From: an uncultured Alphaproteobacteria bacterium
Lineage (GTDB): Bacteria; Pseudomonadota; Alphaproteobacteria; Bin95
Length of the DNA: 60,004 bases
Direction: 5' to 3'
Assembly (NCBI GenBank): GCA_937891825.1
Contig: CALAHN010000033.1
Span: 1 to 60,004 of the forward strand
The notes beneath the pieces were generated by a model. That model worked only from the letters and a program-made list of their open reading frames with translations. It was not told the DNA's origin and ran no database searches. The translations under genes were made by a program, and so were the position numbers. Below, in pieces: positions 15,874 to 25,820 of the stretch; the stretch's first letter is position 1; every line of letters starts with the position of its first letter.

Positions 15874-17310
15874 ATGCAAGCTGCGCCCATGCTTCCCGAA
15901 ATCCTTCTGGCCATTGCGGGCATGGTTCTGCTGATGGTCGGCGTCTTCGTCGGCGACAAGTCAGCGAAGCCGCTCACCTATGTCGTCGCGGCGGCGCTGT
16001 TCGCGGCCCTCGCCCTGGGCTGGACGACGCCCCACGGCGATGCGTTCGGCGGGTTGTTCGTCGCGGACAAGCTGGCCTATTTCGCCAAGGCGCTGATCGT
16101 CATCGGCGCGGCTGCGACCGTGCTCATGGCGGCCGGCCGCGCTACGCCGTCCGACGGCTCCGGCCCCATGCGCTTCGAGCAGCCGGTGCTGATGCTGTTC
16201 GCATCCGTCGGCATGATGCTGATGGTCTCCGCCAATGACCTGATGTCGCTTTATGTCGGCCTCGAGCTGCAAAGCCTGGCGCTTTATGTGCTGGCCGCGA
16301 TCCGGCGGGATTCGCTGCGCGCGACGGAAGCCGGGCTGAAATATTTCGTCCTTGGCGCGCTCTCCTCCGGCATGCTGCTTTATGGGGCGGGCATGATCTA
16401 CGGCTTCACAGGCGCCACGAATTTCGACCGCATCGCCGCCAGCGTCACGGCGATGGGCACGCCGTCCCTAGGACTTGTCGTCGGCATCGTCTTCCTGATG
16501 GCGGGCCTGGCGTTCAAGGTATCGGCGGCGCCGTTCCATATGTGGACGCCGGACGTCTATGAAGGCGCCGACACGCCGATCACCGCATTTTTCGCGGCCG
16601 CGCCCAAGGCGGCGGCCCTGGCGCTGTTCGCCCGGGTCATGACCGATCCGCTGGGCGACGCCGCCAGCGCCTGGGGCCAGATCGTCGCGATGATCGCCGG
16701 GTTGTCCGTTATCGTCGGCGCGTTCGGCGCCCTCGCCCAGCGCAATATCAAGCGGCTGATGGCCTATAGCTCCATCGGCCATGTCGGCTTCGCGCTGATC
16801 GGCCTTGCCGCGGCGTCGGAAAACGGCGTGCGCAGCTTGCTGATCTATTCGGCGATCTATCTGTTCATGAACCTCGCGGCTTTCGCGTTCATTCTGGCGA
16901 TGCGCCGGGACGAGCATGCGGTCGAAACCATCGACGATCTCGCCGGCGCCAGCCAGACCCATCCCTACATGGCGTTGGCGCTGGCGGCGGTGCTGTTCTC
17001 GATGGCGGGCATCCCGCCGCTCGCGGGCTTCTTTGCCAAGCTCTATGTGCTGAGCGCTGCGGTCGATTCCGGCCTGTACGTCCTCGCCGTCGTCGGCGTC
17101 CTCGCGAGCGTCATAAGCTGCTTCTACTATCTCCGCCTGATCAAGCTGATGTATTTCGACGCGCCGCGCGATGCGATGGACAGCCCGATGCCACGCGATC
17201 TGGGTTTGGTGCTGGGCGTTGCGACGGCGATCATCCTGGTCTTCATCCTGATCCCGAGCCCGATCGTCGCGACCGCCACGGCCGCCGCCCAGGAACTGTT
17301 CCAGCGTTGA
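15874..17310 (+). CDS. nuoN: NADH-quinone oxidoreductase subunit N
   Basis: NuoN is the proximal antiporter-like subunit. The 478 residues include SLYVGLELQSLALYVLAAI, FKVSAAPFHMWTPDVYEG and RLMAYSSIGHVGFALIG, the standard channel motifs. A second in-frame ATG at 15889 would remove five residues; I cannot decide between them, although AGGGAGGC just before 15874 favours the first. The TGA overlaps the TTG start of birA, so birA is probably translated from the nuo transcript. Confidence 0.96.
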   Translation: MQAAPMLPEILLAIAGMVLLMVGVFVGDKSAKPLTYVVAAALFAALALGWTTPHGDAFGGLFVADKLAYFAKALIVIGAAATVLMAAGRATPSDGSGPMRFEQPVLMLFASVGMMLMVSANDLMSLYVGLELQSLALYVLAAIRRDSLRATEAGLKYFVLGALSSGMLLYGAGMIYGFTGATNFDRIAASVTAMGTPSLGLVVGIVFLMAGLAFKVSAAPFHMWTPDVYEGADTPITAFFAAAPKAAALALFARVMTDPLGDAASAWGQIVAMIAGLSVIVGAFGALAQRNIKRLMAYSSIGHVGFALIGLAAASENGVRSLLIYSAIYLFMNLAAFAFILAMRRDEHAVETIDDLAGASQTHPYMALALAAVLFSMAGIPPLAGFFAKLYVLSAAVDSGLYVLAVVGVLASVISCFYYLRLIKLMYFDAPRDAMDSPMPRDLGLVLGVATAIILVFILIPSPIVATATAAAQELFQR

Positions 17311-18071
17311 TCGAGCCCTGGGCGCCGGGGGGGCGGTGGCGGATCGAACGCCACGTCGAAATCGACAGCACGAACGCCGAAGCCGCCCGCCAGGCGAAGG
17401 CCGGCGCGGCGGCGGGCCTCGCGGTCACGGCACGCGCCCAGACCCAGGGCCGCGGCCGCGGCGACCGTGTCTGGAGCACCGCCGGCCAGGATCTCGCGCT
17501 CTCGATCCTGCTGCGGCCCGCGCTCGCGCCCTCCGCCGCCGCGACGGTGGGCTTCGTCGCGGCGCTCGCGGTCTACGATCTCGCGAAAAGCCTATTGCCC
17601 GCGGATGCGCCGGTGGCGATCAAGTGGCCGAACGATGTGATGATCGGCGACGCCAAGCTTTCCGGCATTCTGGCGGAGGCGTCCGGCGCCGGCCCGACGG
17701 TCGACTGGCTGGTGCTGGGGATCGGCGTCAATCTTGTCCCGACGGACCGGCCCGGCGCCGCCAATCCCATCGACCTGACGACGGCCGGCGGCCCGACGCT
17801 CGATCCGGATGACGCGGCGGACCGGCTGCTCGGCCATCTCAATCCCTGGCTGGCGCAATGGCTCGGCCAAGGCTTCGCCCCGATCCGGGCGGCATGGCTC
17901 GCCCGGGCGCGGGATATCGGCCGCCAGGTGATCGCCCGCCTGCCGAATGAGCTGGTGGCCGGGCAGGCGCTCGATCTTGCCGATGACGGCGCGCTCGTGC
18001 TTGCCTTGCCCGATGGCCGGCGACGGCGGATCGCAGCCGGCGACGTATTCCCCCTAACCAAAGACGTGTGA
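17307..18071 (+). CDS. birA: biotin--[acetyl-CoA-carboxylase] ligase
   Basis: This enzyme activates biotin with ATP and attaches it to the biotin-carrier domain of carboxylases. The 254-residue protein has the adenylate-binding [10 protein letters not shown] (residues 47-56), the IKWPNDVM lysine motif and VLGIGVNLV. It lacks the N-terminal helix-turn-helix, so it is the non-regulatory class I form and cannot repress bio genes itself. The start is TTG at 17307 overlapping the nuoN stop, with no alternative ATG nearby. Placement directly after nuoN is common in alphaproteobacteria. Confidence 0.95.
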
Positions 18072-18850
18072 CCCCCATGCTTCTCGCCATTGACGCAGGC
18101 AACACCAACACGGTTTTCGCAATTTATGACGGCGATCGGCAGCTTGGCCTCTGGCGAGCGGCGACGGATACGCGCCGCACGGCCGATGAGCACTATGTCT
18201 GGCTGATGCAGTTGATGGGCGTGGAAGGCATTTCGACCGACAATATCGATGCCGCGATCATCGCGACCGTGGTGCCGGCGTCGCTGTTCAATCTGACCCG
18301 GCTCTGCCAGCGCTATTTCAATTGCGAGGCCCTGGTCGTCGGCGAACCCGGCGTCGATCTCGGCATCGAAGTCCACCTCGACAATCCGGGCGAAGTCGGC
18401 GCCGACCGGCTGGTCAACGCCGTCGCCGCGAAGACCGCCTATGGCGGCCCGCTGATCCTGATCGATTTCGGCACCGCGACGACGTTCGATGTGATAGATG
18501 AAGCGGGAAACTATGTCGGCGGCATCATCGCGCCCGGCGCCAACCTCTCGATGGAGGCCCTGCACATGGCTGCCGCCAAGCTGCCGCTGGTGGCTGTCAG
18601 GCAGCCGCAGCAGGTGGTCGGGCGCAATACGGTGCAGGCGATGCAGTCCGGCATCTACTATGGCTATCTCAGCCTGATCGAAGGTCTGGTGCAACGCATC
18701 CGGACCGAACGCAACGACCCGGATATCCGCGCCGTCGCCACTGGCGGCCTGGCTCCGCTTTTCTTCGGCGCGACAGACGCCATCACCGCCGTGGACAGGG
18801 ACCTTACCCTGCGCGGCCTGCTTGAAATTTATGAACGGAACTCGAAGTGA
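18068..18850 (+). CDS. coaX: type III pantothenate kinase
   Basis: CoaX phosphorylates pantothenate as the first step of coenzyme A synthesis. The 260-residue protein belongs to the acetate/sugar-kinase/Hsp70 fold. [14 protein letters not shown] is the phosphate-binding loop, [11 protein letters not shown] and [13 protein letters not shown] give the catalytic Asp and adenine region, and [15 protein letters not shown] follows. The start is GTG at 18068 in a GTGA overlap with birA; ATG at 18077 is three codons later and also possible. Its stop overlaps the GTG of rnj in the same way. Confidence 0.96.
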
Positions 18851-20529
18851 CCGAATCTAACGTAACCCTGCCAATTCCGAGCGACACGGAGACCCTGTTT
18901 GTCGCCCTTGGCGGGCTCGGCGAAATTGGCATGAACCTCGCCCTCTATGGCCATGCCGGCAAATGGATCGCCGTCGACATGGGCGTGACCTTTGGCGACG
19001 AGGATACCCCCGGCGTCGATATCATCGTGCCCGATATCAGCGTGCTGACGGCGCTTGGCGACAAGCTCGCCGGCGTGCTGATCACCCATGCCCATGAAGA
19101 CCATATCGGCGCTGTCCCCTACCTCGCCGGGCGCTTCAAATGCCCGGTCTATTGCTCGCCGTTCGCGGCGACCTTCCTGCGGCGCAAGCTCGAGGACGAC
19201 GGCGGCTCGGCCGGCAAGAAGGTCAAGATCGTCGAAATCCCATCGGGCGGCCGCAAGAAGATCGGCCCGTTCGAGGTCGAGTTGATCGGCATGCCCCACT
19301 CGGTGCCGGAAGCGCATTTGACGGCGCTCCGCTCGGCGGCGGGCATGGTGGTGCATTCGGGCGACTGGAAGCTCGATCCGGGGCCGGTCGTCGGCAAACC
19401 GGCGGACGAAAAGCGCCTGGCCGCGCTTGGCAAGGAAGGTGTGGCTGCGCTGGTCTGCGATTCGACCAACGCCCTCCGGGAAGGTTGGACGCGCAGCGAG
19501 TCCGAACTGGGCGAGCCGATCACCGACCTGATCCGCTCCCGCGACCGCCGGGTGCTGTTCGCCTGTTTCTCCTCCAACGTCGCCCGGTTGAACACGATCG
19601 CGCTGGCGGCGAAGGCGGCCGGCCGGCAAGTCGGCCTCGTCGGCCGCTCGCTCTGGCGCATGCATGACGTCGCAAGCGCCCATGGCTACCTGAAGGGCCT
19701 GCCGCCGTTCCTGAAGGAAAACGAACTCGGCCAGTTGCCCGCCAACAAGATCGTCGCAATCTGCACCGGCAGCCAGGGCGAGCCGCGCGCTGCGCTGCAC
19801 CGCATTTCAGACGCCCAGCATCGCCACATCCAGGTCGAGGCGGGCGATACGGTGGTCTTCTCGTCCCGGGATATTCCGGGCAACGAAAAGGCCATCGGCC
19901 GCCTGCAGAACAAGCTGGTGGCGATGCATGTCGACGTGGTGACCGACGGCACCGCGAAGGTTCACGTCTCCGGGCATCCGGCGCGGGACGAGTTGAAACA
20001 TCTCTACAGCTTGCTGAAGCCAGCCCGGTTGCTGCCGGCGCACGGCGAGGGCCGACACCTGCACGGCCACGCGATCTTCGGCCGGGAATGCGGCATTCCG
20101 GAAGTCCGGGTCGCGTTCAACGGCGACGTCATCCGGCTCGCCGGCGGCGACTACGAAGAACTGACCAAGGTCAAGGTCGGCCGGGTCGGCATGGACGGCG
20201 ACGTCAAGATCGCGCTCGATGGCGACGCGCTCAGGGAGCGGCGGCTGATGCGGCTTGACGGGATCGCGATGATCACCGTCATTCTGGACGGCAAGGGCAA
20301 CCTTGCCGCCGATAGCATGGTGACCTTGTCCGGGCTTGAGGCCGCGGCCGACGAAGACCTGCTGGAAGCAGCCGAGATCGCCGTCGACGAGGCGGTTGAG
20401 GATCTGTCCCAGAAGGCGCGTCGGGACGATGCGCCGGTCGAGGATGCGGCGCGTTCGGCGCTCCGCCGGGTGTTGCGCAAGCAGACCGGCAAGCGGCCGC
20501 GCATCAGCGTGCACGTCGCGCGCGTCTAG
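18847..20529 (+). CDS. rnj: ribonuclease J
   Basis: RNase J is a zinc-dependent metallo-beta-lactamase/beta-CASP RNase with endo- and 5'-exonuclease activity, used in mRNA decay and rRNA maturation. The 560-residue protein has the metal motif HAHEDH (residues 81-86), HSGDWKLDP, the beta-CASP segment [26 protein letters not shown] and [11 protein letters not shown], then a C-terminal domain. The GTG start overlaps the coaX stop (GTGA). The nuo-birA-coaX-rnj order is recurrent in alphaproteobacteria, and this is probably the last gene of the long transcript. Confidence 0.95.
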
Positions 20530-20596
20530 GTCTTGAAGTCGCGTCCTGGACGGCGCGCCTGACACGTCATCCCTCCACGCCCGCGATATCTCGTAA

Positions 20597-21247
20597 ATGT
20601 TCGATCCTGAGACGATAGGCCAACTCAAGGCGCTGGTGTCGGTGATCGGCATCGACATTGTGCTGGCCGGCGACAATGCGGTGGTGGTCGGCATGGCGGC
20701 GGCGGGGCTGTCGCGCGAACTCAGGTCGCGGGCGATCCTCATCGGCATCCTGGCCGCGATGGGGATGCGCATCGCCTTCGCGCTGGTCGCAGCGGAACTG
20801 ATGACGATCGTCGGCTTGATGGCGGCCGGCGGCGTGCTCTTGCTCTGGGTCGCATGGAAGCTTTGGCGCGAACTCCGCGAAAGCGCCGCCGCCAGCGCGG
20901 CGATCAAGGACCTGGAAGCCGAAGAGGCGGGCGGCGATGGCGTTGGGGACGGCGCCGGCGGCGGCGATGGCAAGACCCTGAAACAGGCGGTGATCCAGAT
21001 CCTGATCGCCGACCTCACCATGTCGCTCGACAATGTCCTCGCGGTCGCGGGCGCGGCGCACGAACATCCCTACATCATGGCGTTCGGACTCGTGCTCTCG
21101 GTCGCGCTGATGGGCATCGCCGCGACCTGGATCGCCCGCATGCTGGAGACGCATCGCTGGATCGCCTATGTCGGCCTCGCCTTGATCGTTTACGTAGCGC
21201 TCAGCATGATCTGGGATGGCGGGCACGCGCTCGCGCAAATCAGCTGA
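20597..21247 (+). CDS. TerC/YjbE-family integral membrane protein
   Basis: The 216 residues form a TerC-family membrane protein, a family linked to metal (often manganese) efflux or homeostasis and, by name, tellurium resistance. The repeated helix motif with Asp appears twice: DIVLAGDNAVVVGMAAAGL near residue 18 and ADLTMSLDNVLAVAGAAHEH near residue 138. About seven hydrophobic segments are visible. Between the two halves lies an acidic, glycine-rich loop around residues 106-125 (EAGGDGVGDGAGGGDG). No yybP-ykoY-like manganese riboswitch is apparent in the 67 bp upstream. The substrate is not known from sequence. Confidence 0.85.
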   Translation: MFDPETIGQLKALVSVIGIDIVLAGDNAVVVGMAAAGLSRELRSRAILIGILAAMGMRIAFALVAAELMTIVGLMAAGGVLLLWVAWKLWRELRESAAASAAIKDLEAEEAGGDGVGDGAGGGDGKTLKQAVIQILIADLTMSLDNVLAVAGAAHEHPYIMAFGLVLSVALMGIAATWIARMLETHRWIAYVGLALIVYVALSMIWDGGHALAQIS

Positions 21248-21295
21248 CGGGGAACCCCGCCCAGTCGGCTTCCCCCTGGTAAGGATGACCGCCCC

Positions 21296-22069
21296 ATGCC
21301 GCGTTATGCCCAGAGCCTCGCCGCCTTCACTATTCCCGGCTTGCCCGAAGTGCGGCCCGGGGACGATGTCGCGGCGCTGATCGGCGATGCGCTCGACGCG
21401 GCCGACATTCAGCTCAAGCCCGGCGACGTGATCGTCGTCGCGCAGAAGATCGTCTCCAAGGCGGAAGGGCGCTATGTCGATCTGGCGGATGTTCAGCCAG
21501 GCGCGGAGGCCGAGGCCTGGGCCGCGAAGACCGGCAAGGACCCGCGCCTCGTCGAAGCGATTCTCGGCGAGACGACCAGCGTGTTGCGCTGGCGCCCGAA
21601 CCTCCTTGTCGTGGAGCACAAGCGCGGCTGGGTGATGGCGAACGCCGGCGCCGACCAATCCAATATCGAGGGCCGGGAGGGCGAGCGCGTGCTGCTGCTG
21701 CCGGTGGACCCGGACGCATCGGCCGCGCGCATCAGGGCGGCCCTGGAAGCCCGTTATGGCGGCCCATACGGGGTCCTGATCGCGGACAGCGTCGGCCGCG
21801 CCTGGCGGGTCGGCACGGTCGGCCTCGCCCTTGGCGCGGCGGGCGTTCAGACGGTCGCGGACATTCGCGGCCAGCTCGACCGGCAGGGGCGCGAACTGAA
21901 GGTCTCGATCGTCGGCATTGGCGACGAGATCGCGGCGGCGGCGAACCTGCTGATCGGCGAGGCGGCGGAAGGCACGCCGGTCGCGGTGGTCTCGGGCCTC
22001 AAGGTCCTGTCGGAAACCCAGACCGGCGCCGATCTGGTGCGGCCGTCGTCGGAAGACCTGTTCCGATGA
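21296..22069 (+). CDS. cofE: coenzyme F420-0:L-glutamate ligase
   Basis: CofE adds gamma-linked glutamates to F420-0 using GTP. The 257-residue protein is the single-domain form seen in archaea and many Gram-negative bacteria, not the FbiB fusion of actinobacteria. Supporting segments are LKPGDVIVVAQKIVSKAEGR near residue 40, the ADSVGRAWRVGTVGLALG region, which resembles the archaeal DTFGRPWR segment, and IVGIGDEIAAAANLLIGEA. AAGGATG upstream of the ATG is a good ribosome site. Its stop overlaps the cofD start (ATGA), tying the two F420 genes together. Confidence 0.9.
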   Translation: MPRYAQSLAAFTIPGLPEVRPGDDVAALIGDALDAADIQLKPGDVIVVAQKIVSKAEGRYVDLADVQPGAEAEAWAAKTGKDPRLVEAILGETTSVLRWRPNLLVVEHKRGWVMANAGADQSNIEGREGERVLLLPVDPDASAARIRAALEARYGGPYGVLIADSVGRAWRVGTVGLALGAAGVQTVADIRGQLDRQGRELKVSIVGIGDEIAAAANLLIGEAAEGTPVAVVSGLKVLSETQTGADLVRPSSEDLFR

Positions 22070-22998
22070 AGGTCGCCGCGCTTTCCGGCGGCGTCGGCGG
22101 CGCCAAGCTGGCGCTTGGGCTCGACCGGGCGCTGCCGTCGGGCGGCTTGACCCTGATCGCCAATACCGGCGACGATTTCCGCTTCCACGGGCTTCCGGTC
22201 TCGCCGGATATCGACACGCTGATCTACACGCTCGCCGGCTTGAACGACGAAGCGCGGGGCTGGGGACTGGCTGGGGAAACCTGGGGGTTCATGGGAGCGC
22301 TGGGGACGCTCGGCGGCGAGGCGTGGTTTAATCTGGGAGACCGCGACCTGGCGATGCATGTGCTGCGGCGCCAGGCGCTCGACGCCGGCCGGAGCCTCTC
22401 CGCCCTGACCGAGTCGATCCGGACCCAATTGAACATTCGCGCCCGTATCCTGCCGATGTCCGACATGCCGACGCCGACCGTCGTCGACACGGTCGAGCAC
22501 GGACCCATCCCGTTCCAACGCTATTTCGTCGAGCGGCAGGCGGCGCCCACTGTGACGGGCTTTGTATTCGAGGGCATCGCCGAAGCGGCGCCCGCCCCCG
22601 GCGTGCTCGACGCGCTGGCGGCGGCGGACGTGATCGTCGTCTGCCCATCGAACCCGTTCATCTCGATCGAGCCGATCCTGGAGGTTCCGGGCATCCGGCA
22701 GGCCCTGCGCCAGGCCTCTGCGCCCGTCATCGCGATTTCGCCGATCGTCGCCGGCGAGGCGATCAAGGGACCGACGGCGAAGATGTTCCGGGAACTGGGC
22801 TTCACGCCCTCGCCGGCCGCCGTCGCGGAGCGCTACCGCGATTTCCTCGATATCATGATCGTCGACGAGCAGGACGCCGCCGCCGAGCCCGCCGTTCAGG
22901 CGCTTGGGGTGGAAACGCGGCTTGCCCAGACGGTCATGCGCACGCTGGACGACAAGATCCGGCTGGCGCGGACCGTGCTGGACCTTGCCGCCGTCTGA
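22066..22998 (+). CDS. cofD: phosphoenolpyruvyl/2-phospho-L-lactate transferase of F420 biosynthesis
   Basis: CofD joins the deazaflavin Fo to a phospho-C3 unit donated from a guanylylated precursor to form F420-0 or its dehydro or glycero version. The 310-residue protein starts with the diagnostic VAALSGGVGGAKLALGL. It has NTGDDFRFHGLPVSPDIDT, ETWGFM, FNLGDRDLAMH and PSNPFISIEPIL, all conserved in the CofD/UPF0052 group. NLGDRD and the overlap with cofE separate it from the YvcK branch. Sequence alone does not show which phospho-acid is used. The stop codon touches the stop of the convergent crotonase gene with no gap. Confidence 0.92.
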   Translation: MKVAALSGGVGGAKLALGLDRALPSGGLTLIANTGDDFRFHGLPVSPDIDTLIYTLAGLNDEARGWGLAGETWGFMGALGTLGGEAWFNLGDRDLAMHVLRRQALDAGRSLSALTESIRTQLNIRARILPMSDMPTPTVVDTVEHGPIPFQRYFVERQAAPTVTGFVFEGIAEAAPAPGVLDALAAADVIVVCPSNPFISIEPILEVPGIRQALRQASAPVIAISPIVAGEAIKGPTAKMFRELGFTPSPAAVAERYRDFLDIMIVDEQDAAAEPAVQALGVETRLAQTVMRTLDDKIRLARTVLDLAAV

Positions 22999-23793
22999 TC
23001 AGGCTTCGAGATCAGGCAGGTTGAAGCGGTCGTCCGGGTTGTTCCAGCCGGTCCAGTTGGGCTTCCGCTTTTCGGCGAAGGCGGCGCGCGATTCGATCAG
23101 GTCGCTCTTGGCGCCATGATCGTGCAGCCGGTCCGCCAGCTTCTGGTGGGCCGGGCCGATGGACGGCCGCATGCGGCGCATCATGTGCACCGTGTTGACG
23201 CGGGACGCGGGCGGCAGGGTCAGCAGGTGCTCCGCCATTTCGACGGCCACGGGCACGACCTGGTCGGCTGGCGCCAGCCGATTGACGAAACCCAGTTCGT
23301 GGAAGCGCTTGGCGGTGAAACGGAAGCCAAGCGCCATCTCCATCGCGACCGGATAGGGCAGATTGGCCAGATGGCCGTGATTATAGCCGCCCAGCAGCCA
23401 GCGCTTCGCCTCCGAAACCTCGAAGATGGCCGTGTCGGCGGCGACCCGAAGGTCCGTGCCCTCGACCAGCATGAAGCCGCCGCCCATGGCGAAGCCGTTG
23501 ATCGCGCCGATGACGGGCTTTTCCAGCGCGCCGGTGCGGAACGGATCCTCGATCGGCAGGTTGCGGCCGCCGGGCGTCTTGTCCTTGAGGGCTTCCTTCA
23601 TGTCCTCGCCTGCGCAGAAGCCCCGGCCGGTTCCGGTGAACACGGCGACCTCAAGGTCCCGGCTTTCGCGGAACTCGGTCCAGGCTTCGGCCAGCCCCAT
23701 CCGAAGCTCGAAATTGAGGGCGTTCAGCGCCTCCGGCCGGTTCATCCGGACGATGAAAATCTGTCCGCGCTTTTCCGTCTCCAAGACCGCCAT
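22999..23793 (-). CDS. enoyl-CoA hydratase/isomerase (crotonase) family protein
   Basis: This is a 264-residue crotonase-fold protein, probably acting on a CoA thioester. The CoA/oxyanion motifs are visible as RPEALNALNFEL near residue 19 and FCAGEDMKEAL near residue 59, with INGFAMGGGFML near 100. The first catalytic glutamate position is filled (FEVSEAKRW). The segment where the second hydratase glutamate normally sits reads GHLANLPYPVAMEMAL, so I cannot confirm it is conserved. An isomerase, hydrolase or other crotonase reaction is as likely as hydration. It is convergent with cofD and 75 bp downstream of the YtoQ-family gene. Confidence 0.8.
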   Translation of the reverse strand: MAVLETEKRGQIFIVRMNRPEALNALNFELRMGLAEAWTEFRESRDLEVAVFTGTGRGFCAGEDMKEALKDKTPGGRNLPIEDPFRTGALEKPVIGAINGFAMGGGFMLVEGTDLRVAADTAIFEVSEAKRWLLGGYNHGHLANLPYPVAMEMALGFRFTAKRFHELGFVNRLAPADQVVPVAVEMAEHLLTLPPASRVNTVHMMRRMRPSIGPAHQKLADRLHDHGAKSDLIESRAAFAEKRKPNWTGWNNPDDRFNLPDLEA

Positions 23794-23868
23794 CGGGCCG
23801 CTCCCTCACATCATAATCAGGGGCGAGAGACTAGCCGCCGGGGCGCAGGAGCGAAAGAGCTGCCTGGA

Positions 23869-24330
23869 TCAGGAGGCCTTCGGCAGCACGCCTTCGATGA
23901 CATAGGCCAGGATGTCGGCCGCCTGATCCGGGCGTTCGATCACCGCGAGCGCCGCCCCGTCGACTTCCTTCAGCGCGTGGGCATGGTCCGGCCCATGCAT
24001 GACGATCAGCGACTTGCCGAGCGCGGCCGCCATGCCGGCGTCGAAGGCGGCGTTCCACTGGCGATACTTGTCGCCGAAGCGGACGATCACGATGTCGGCC
24101 TTTTCCAGCAGCGTGCGGGTGCGGATCGCGTTCAGCTTGGCGCCCTTGTGGTCGTGCCAGAACTTGTTCTGCTCGCCGCCCATGATGACGACGCCGCAAT
24201 CGTCGGAAGCGTCATGGTCGGTCACGGGCCCGGAGAACGCCACATCGAGGCCGCGGGCCTTGACCGCGCTTTCGATTTCATCGCGCCAATCGCTATGGAT
24301 TTCGCCGGAAAGATATACCTGCCACGTCAT
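23869..24330 (-). CDS. YtoQ-family protein
   Basis: The 153 residues match the small YtoQ family of unknown function. The whole conserved pattern is present: VYLSGEIHSDWRDEI at the N-terminus, FSGPVTDHDASDDCG, GGEQNKFWHDHKGAKLNAIR and VIVRFGDKYRQWNAAFDAG. The glycine and aspartate layout resembles the nucleoside-2-deoxyribosyltransferase/TIR-like Rossmann group, so a nucleotide-related ligand is a reasonable inference, but nothing in the sequence proves it. It lies between trmFO and the crotonase gene. A strong 16 bp palindrome sits just upstream of its start. Confidence 0.8.
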   Translation of the reverse strand: MTWQVYLSGEIHSDWRDEIESAVKARGLDVAFSGPVTDHDASDDCGVVIMGGEQNKFWHDHKGAKLNAIRTRTLLEKADIVIVRFGDKYRQWNAAFDAGMAAALGKSLIVMHGPDHAHALKEVDGAALAVIERPDQAADILAYVIEGVLPKAS

Positions 24331-24353
24331 TGGGATGCTCCTTTTCTGGTCTG

Positions 24354-24387
24354 GAGCATGGCGCGCTCAGGTGAGCGCGCCATGCTC
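24354..24387. repeat. perfect 16 bp palindrome, copy A of a dispersed repeat
   Basis: GAGCATGGCGCGCTCA (24354-24369) is followed after GG by its exact reverse complement (24372-24387). It sits 24 bp upstream of ytoQ and 62 bp after the trmFO stop. The following bases 24388-24440 are unusually AT-rich and contain an imperfect CCACTT/AGTGG inverted repeat. A relative with the same outer arm, GAGCATGGCGCG, occurs at 35147-35184. It may act as a hairpin terminator for trmFO, but there is no T-tract. Confidence 0.85.
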
Positions 24388-24449
24388 TACCGAATTGAGA
24401 TCGTTCAAATTATCCACTCTTAGTCGATTCCGCCGAAAAGTGGTTTGAT

Positions 24450-25820
24450 CTAGGCGGCGGCGACGGCCGCGCCGTCGAGCCAACCCCGGATATCGGTCTT
24501 GGCGCGCTCGGTCATCAGGCGGCGCCGTTCGATGCGGCCGCGCCGGCCCTTGGGCGCTGGACCGGCGAGCGGCGGCAACAGGCCGAAATTCACGTTCATC
24601 GGCTGGTAGTCGCCGGGCGCGTCCGCCAGCGCGCCGGTCACGTGCTCGACCAGCGCGCCGAGCGCCGTCGTCGTCGGCGGCGGGGCCAGCGGGCGGCCCA
24701 GGGCCTCGGCGGCGGCGAAGCGGCCTGCCACCAGCCCAAGGCCGGCGCTCTCGACATATCCCTCGACGCCCGCGACCTGGCCGGCGAAGCGCAAGCTCGG
24801 GCGCGCCTTCAGGCGAAGATTGGCGTCCAGCAGCCGCGGGCCGTCGATGAAGGTATTCCGGTGGATGCCGCCAAGCCGGGCGAAGCGGGCGCCCTCAAGG
24901 CCGGGGATCGTCCGGAAGATTTCCGTCTGGGGTCCGTGTTTCAGCTTGGTCTGGAAGCCGACGATGTTAAACAGCGTGGCGGCCCGGTTGTCTTGACGGA
25001 GCTGCACGACGGCATATGGCTTCTGGGGATTGTGCGGATTGGTCAACCCGACCGGCTTCATCGGCCCGAAGCGCAGCGTCTCCGGTCCCCGTTCCGCCAT
25101 GACCTCGATCGGCAGGCAGCCCTCGAAATAGGGGGTGTCCTTCTCCCAGTCGCGGAATTCGGTCTTGTCGCCATCGACCAGGGCCTGCACGAAGGCCTGG
25201 TACTGAGCTTTGTCCATCGGGCAATTGATGTAGTCCTTGCCGTCGCCGCCGGGGCCGGGCTTGTCGTAGCGGGACTGCTTCCAGGCGACGGACATGTCTA
25301 TCGAGTCCGCGTGGACGATCGGCGCGATCGCATCGAAGAACGCCAGAGCGTCCGCGCCGGTCAGGCCGCGGATGGCTTCCGCGAGCGGCGTGCTGGTCAG
25401 GGGGCCGGTCGCGATGATGACCGAGGCCCAATCTTCCGGCGGCAGGCCTTTCAGTTCCTCCCGGCGGATTTCGATCAGCGGCTCGGCTTCGATCGCGGCC
25501 GTGACGCTGGCGGCGAAAACCTCCCGGTCGACCGCGAGCGCGTCGCCGGCCGGCACTTGCGCCGCGTCCGCCGCTCGCATCACCAGGGAGCCTGCCGCCC
25601 GCATTTCCCAATGCAGCAGGCCGACGGCGTTGGCTTCCGAATCGTCGGAGCGGAAGGAGTTCGAGCAGACCAGCTCCGCCAGACTGTCGGTCTGGTGGGC
25701 GGCGGTCCCGGAAACAGGGCGCATTTCGTGCAGGATTACCGGAAGCCCGGCCTTGGCGCATTGCCAAGCGGCTTCGGAGCCGGCCAGGCCGCCTCCTACA
25801 ATATGAATGGGGTGTGTCAT
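24450..25820 (-). CDS. trmFO: methylenetetrahydrofolate--tRNA-(uracil-5-)-methyltransferase
   Basis: TrmFO is the FAD- and folate-dependent enzyme that makes m5U54 in the T-loop of tRNA. The 456-residue product begins [20 protein letters not shown], quoted as [16 protein letters not shown], the FAD-binding loop. It continues with [20 protein letters not shown] and a C-terminal NVNFGLLPP segment typical of the family. ATG at 25820 was chosen because the FAD loop must be at the N-terminus; a further 24 in-frame upstream codons have no family resemblance. It follows the cNMP/FHA-like gene on the same strand by 79 bp. Confidence 0.95.

Follow-up and report, generated by a model that had tools for sequence, protein, structure and literature searches.

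Genes of a predicted coenzyme F420 pathway behind an overlapping cofE-cofD pair in an alphaproteobacterium rich in luciferase-like proteins

Two overlapping genes, cofE and cofD, in the window (the whole stretch of DNA analysed, 60,004 nucleotides, contig C33 of the assembly) almost certainly account for the final two reactions in a complete pathway to coenzyme F420, a redox cofactor. As read from the families to which the proteins belong, Fo would be made by the fused synthase FbiC and a three-carbon phospho-acid would be activated with GTP by CofC, both encoded on contig C31; CofD would then join the activated phospho-acid to Fo, and CofE would add gamma-linked glutamates. F420 would most likely be reduced at the expense of NADPH by one Fno, and its reduced form would chiefly serve luciferase-like (LLM) hydride transferases, among them one whose gene separates cofC from fbiC. 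What was observed directly is that all these genes are present and intact and belong to the families named, and that they co-occur across genomes. The set is best described as genuine, ordinary F420 biosynthesis genes, as judged by sequence, in a genome rich in likely users. The occurrence of F420 in Alphaproteobacteria has already been published, with only trace amounts in the two species tested (PMC8498797); slightly new here are how many LLM proteins the genome encodes and the link, seen across the class, between such numbers and CofD, together with the lack of Fgd, a conserved cofC-LLM-fbiC arrangement and a polar residue in the CofC pocket.

The cofE and cofD genes

The cofE gene (21296-22069, forward strand) encodes a predicted coenzyme F420-0:L-glutamate ligase of 257 amino acids, stand-alone and without the C-terminal domain of FbiB. 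The cofD gene (22066-22998, forward strand), a homologue of fbiA, encodes a predicted phospho-acid:Fo transferase of 310 amino acids. Both open reading frames were intact and overlapping, as had been described in an earlier note on this DNA; they share 4 bp (ATGA, 22066-22069). CofE scored 266 bits with TIGR01916 (NCBIfam equivalog cut-off 181) and 238 bits with PF01996, and was aligned over its full length with the solved F420-0:gamma-glutamyl ligases 2phn, 7uld and 2g9i. CofD scored 297.5 bits with TIGR01819 (NCBIfam equivalog cut-off 257) and was aligned over its full length with solved CofD (3c3d) and FbiA (6uvx). Chance can be ruled out as the source of profile scores of this size. A YvcK-like identity was considered for CofD and dropped, since the YvcK model TIGR01826 gave just 38 bits, below its cut-off of 196, against 297.5 bits for TIGR01819.

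The remaining pathway genes

The assembly comprised 4,297,217 bases in 163 contigs and was estimated to be 99.97% complete with 0.29% contamination. Neither cofC nor an Fo synthase gene was present in the window, as the earlier note had remarked, and the sole copies in the genome above cut-off were located on contig C31 at about 20.4-24.7 kb. There, intact FbiC scored 1139 bits with NF006687 (cut-off 1018), its CofG and CofH halves scoring 492 and 548 bits, respectively, and CofC (L010:14038-14724, in a stretch of contig C31) scored 136 bits with TIGR03552 (cut-off 105). Because FbiC and CofC are found in the same assembly as CofD and CofE, the pathway is predicted to be genetically complete except for the source of the phospho-acid. 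The genome search proposed in the earlier note, for Fo synthase, cofC and F420-dependent oxidoreductases, returned FbiC, CofC, Fno, an FDOR protein and LLM proteins. Neither half of the combination that the note had named as speaking against F420 synthesis, a genome without Fo synthase and a YvcK-like CofD, was found.

The earlier note had left two explanations for the incomplete set in the window, of which the first, that the rest of the pathway lies elsewhere, was borne out. The second, that the pair serves another cofactor or is a leftover in a cell that makes no Fo, fits the window taken by itself, which lacks an Fo synthase, but is exceedingly improbable given that the same assembly carries FbiC and CofC intact, both conserved in the genus, and besides them Fno, FDOR and many LLM proteins. 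Only contamination of the bin by contig C31 could still save this second explanation; against it stand the contamination estimate and the single clade that FbiC proteins from the genus form with those of the sister genus. In this sense it can be taken as settled that the genes for a full F420 pathway stand behind the cofE-cofD pair. That cofE and cofD lie on contig C33 and the other genes on different contigs leaves co-regulation of the set conjectural, a point against the pathway reading.

The order cofC-LLM-fbiC was conserved in the genus wherever the contigs allowed a check. One member of the genus (G391) kept this order and gave no CofD match; loss of F420 was not accepted for this genome, an assembly gap being more likely since cofC-LLM-fbiC is retained. 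Likewise, for a family member assembled in 550 contigs (G386), in which CofD was present and FbiC gave no match, a gap is more likely than loss.

The gene set resembles that of Oligotropha carboxidovorans and Paracoccus denitrificans (PMC8498797) in the FbiC fusion, CofC, CofD, CofE and Fno. It resembles the mycobacterial FbiA/FbiB/FbiC/FbiD set in the FbiC fusion, in the alignments of CofD with FbiA and of CofC with FbiD, and in the many LLM proteins of F420-named subfamilies, but differs in that CofE is not fused to a dehydro-F420 reductase domain, none of which was found above cut-off, and in the lack of Fgd. With the archaeal 2-phospho-L-lactate route it shares a stand-alone CofE, and the archaeal 3c3d is the best-aligning structure for its CofD, whereas CofG and CofH are here fused as FbiC. 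Large plasmids, among them ones from Sinorhizobium, Sphingobium, Paraburkholderia and Aromatoleum, also carry homologues of FbiC with 51-63% identity, and in several Proteobacteria F420 genes would accordingly be located on secondary replicons. A search of plasmids for CofC gave one match only, in Aromatoleum, which was uninformative on the substrate.

Candidate F420-dependent enzymes

The enzymes that use F420 in this organism, which according to the earlier note could not be known from the window, can now be predicted by family as Fno, FDOR-A and 26 LLM proteins. In the 4.3 Mb genome, 64 distinct LLM proteins (PF00296; 65 Pfam stretches) were counted and scanned one by one against the NCBIfam subfamilies. 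Curated cut-offs of F420-named subfamilies were exceeded by 26 of the 64 (TIGR03619, 17; TIGR03617, four; TIGR03559, three; TIGR03564 and TIGR03620, one each), while six belonged to FMN-type or other named families (NtaA/DmoA, four; RutA, one; MsnO8, one) and 32 passed no named cut-off. The subfamily names are those of the curated profiles, from which use of F420 rather than FMN by an LLM protein would be predicted. The genome further encoded one Fno/NpdG (191 bits, cut-off 150) and one deazaflavin-dependent oxidoreductase of the FDOR-A type (PF04075, 130 bits; TIGR00026, 102 bits, cut-off 46).

None of the 64 LLM proteins matched the Fgd model at 1e-40, and F420 is therefore probably reduced via Fno. 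Predicted alphaproteobacterial producers have been said to encode Fgd as well as Fno (PMC8498797); compared with the Alphaproteobacteria of that review, the genome described here differs in that no Fgd was found and in its large LLM set. The proteins identified give a specific set of candidates for F420-using enzymes in a class whose use of F420 the literature leaves open (PMC8498797).

A natural first candidate among them is the LLM protein of 345 amino acids encoded between cofC and fbiC (L010:12973-14010, contig C31). It scored 137 bits with an F420-named subfamily (cut-off 167) and did not reach the cut-off of any named NCBIfam subfamily. It was found in all members of the genus that have this stretch, with 86-87% identity, higher than that of cofC (67-71%). 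Paralogues with 50-53% identity are encoded elsewhere in the genome (L110, L144, L159), and in another lineage (L014/L015) three to five consecutive LLM genes, 53-63% identical to this one, come after fbiC.

The activated phospho-acid

CofD was left by the earlier note with three possible substrates, 2-phospholactate (2-PL), phosphoenolpyruvate (PEP) and 3-phosphoglycerate (3-PG). The choice is narrowed here by disfavouring 3-PG: as predicted from the proteins encoded, the linker is most likely derived from 2-PL, with PEP second and 3-PG unlikely. Among CofC proteins, of which those of Oligotropha and Paracoccus have been assayed (PMC8764529), one that accepts 3-PG is recognized by Ser or Thr at the residue numbered 162 in the Mycetohabitans protein (PMC8764529). 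The present protein and almost all aligned relatives have Gly instead, for which reason 3-PG is disfavoured. Production of 3PG-F420, as in the betaproteobacterium Mycetohabitans, would have in its favour a known proteobacterial producer with CofC and CofD, whose CofC (7p97) has the nearest sequence among the solved CofC structures; given the Gly in place of the diagnostic residue, it is nonetheless highly unlikely.

The preference for 2-PL follows from the stand-alone CofE and from the failure to recognize a dehydro-F420 reductase. The kinase CofB that supplies 2-PL has not yet been assigned a gene in the literature (PMC8498797), and neither CofC assays alone nor the CofC sequence distinguish 2-PL from PEP (PMC8764529). 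In other bacteria, FbiE is known as a separate protein (PMC8498797). In the 99.97% complete assembly no FbiB-C/FbiE reductase exceeded the TIGR03553 cut-off of 250 bits, the best nitroreductase match reaching 39.5 bits with a model built on the fused form, on which a diverged FbiE could score low. The variant made from PEP through dehydro-F420 is that of mycobacteria and Thermomicrobium. Here, PEP could be loaded by CofC and CofD to give dehydro-F420-0, which a diverged FbiE-like nitroreductase or another reductase would complete. The equivalence of the two substrates in CofC sequence, the existence of free-standing FbiE and the weak nitroreductase matches below cut-off make this a possible route, although a less probable one than not, since no such reductase was found above cut-off and CofE carries no fused domain of the FbiB C-terminal type.

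One feature of the phospho-acid pocket of CofC deserves mention. Position 91/92, which is Leu92 in mycobacterial FbiD and Met91 in Mycetohabitans CofC, is Gln here, so that the protein differs from the Mycetohabitans enzyme both at this position and at position 162 (Gly for Ser). Gln or His was found at 91/92 in many alphaproteobacterial CofC proteins, His for example in Reyranella soli and Bradyrhizobium jicamae, and in most of these cases GTN at the next substrate loop is replaced by GSN; the polar residue at 91/92 may be previously unnoticed. That the Gln/His clade loads some fourth phospho-acid, distinct from 2-PL, PEP and 3-PG, giving an undescribed F420 variant for the LLM set, is conceivable and quite improbable.

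Gene neighbourhood and ancestry of cofED

The rnj gene (18847-20529) and a gene for a YjbE/TerC-family membrane protein (20597-21247, forward strand; TIGR03717, 198 bits, cut-off 135) lie upstream of cofE, the latter separated from it by 48 bp, in agreement with the earlier note. Convergent to cofD on the reverse strand are a crotonase-type gene (22999-23793) and a YtoQ-family gene (23869-24330; TIGR03646, 218 bits), for neither of which a link to F420 was seen. The order terC-cofE-cofD was kept in the three relatives of the genus in which cofD was found (loci L011-L013 and L209-L211), and terC before cofE is fixed in the genus and absent from that place in the sister genus. The terC gene is conserved beside cofED within the genus only and is a positional candidate for a role in F420 metabolism. 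A meaningful linkage of rnj was rejected, as rnj lies away from terC-cofED in relatives.

In the sister genus, the gene for Fno directly precedes cofE and overlaps it by 4 bp (L213:8101-9042), a context that links cofED with F420 metabolism. At the same locus, plsY and topA lie 3' of cofD. No Rfam match to a manganese riboswitch or other RNA was obtained before terC; the single match in 17000-25000 of the window scored under the gathering score and was located elsewhere, and the contig C31 stretch gave none. A simple scan, which says little, detected no promoter or terminator between the window genes.

The different neighbourhoods, terC-cofE-cofD in the genus and fno-cofE-cofD in the sister genus, could be explained if the genus had exchanged its own cofED for a copy acquired by transfer from a different lineage of Alphaproteobacteria. 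The CofD tree is in line with this, joining the genus weakly (97/74) with Minwuia and Kordiimonadales rows and not with the sister genus. A single CofD clade for the family was, however, not rejected (p-AU 0.23-0.24), and FbiC groups both genera (SH-aLRT 96); transfer is on these grounds unlikely and is not claimed.

Distribution across Alphaproteobacteria

CofD above cut-off was found in 58 of 385 alphaproteobacterial genomes drawn evenly over the class (15%) and in 12 of the 14 genomes of the organism's family, a 13th yielding a fragment. The patchiness noted earlier for Proteobacteria applies at the level of the class and not within the family, where CofD is near-universal. Fo synthase above cut-off was present in all 17 CofD-positive genomes checked from other families, against none of seven CofD-negative genomes. 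Among the matches listed (best 31 per genome), the median number of LLM proteins was 27 in CofD-positive genomes (n = 17); among the matches listed for CofD-negative genomes of at least 2.5 Mb (n = 20) it was 1. The difference in these counts among matches listed gave p = 2e-7 in a one-sided Mann-Whitney test that ignores relatedness. The presence of CofD tracks both Fo synthase and the number of LLM proteins, and F420 genes in Alphaproteobacteria go with an expansion of LLM oxidoreductases. First-look counts of LLM proteins in the other genomes of the family ranged from 36 to 98.
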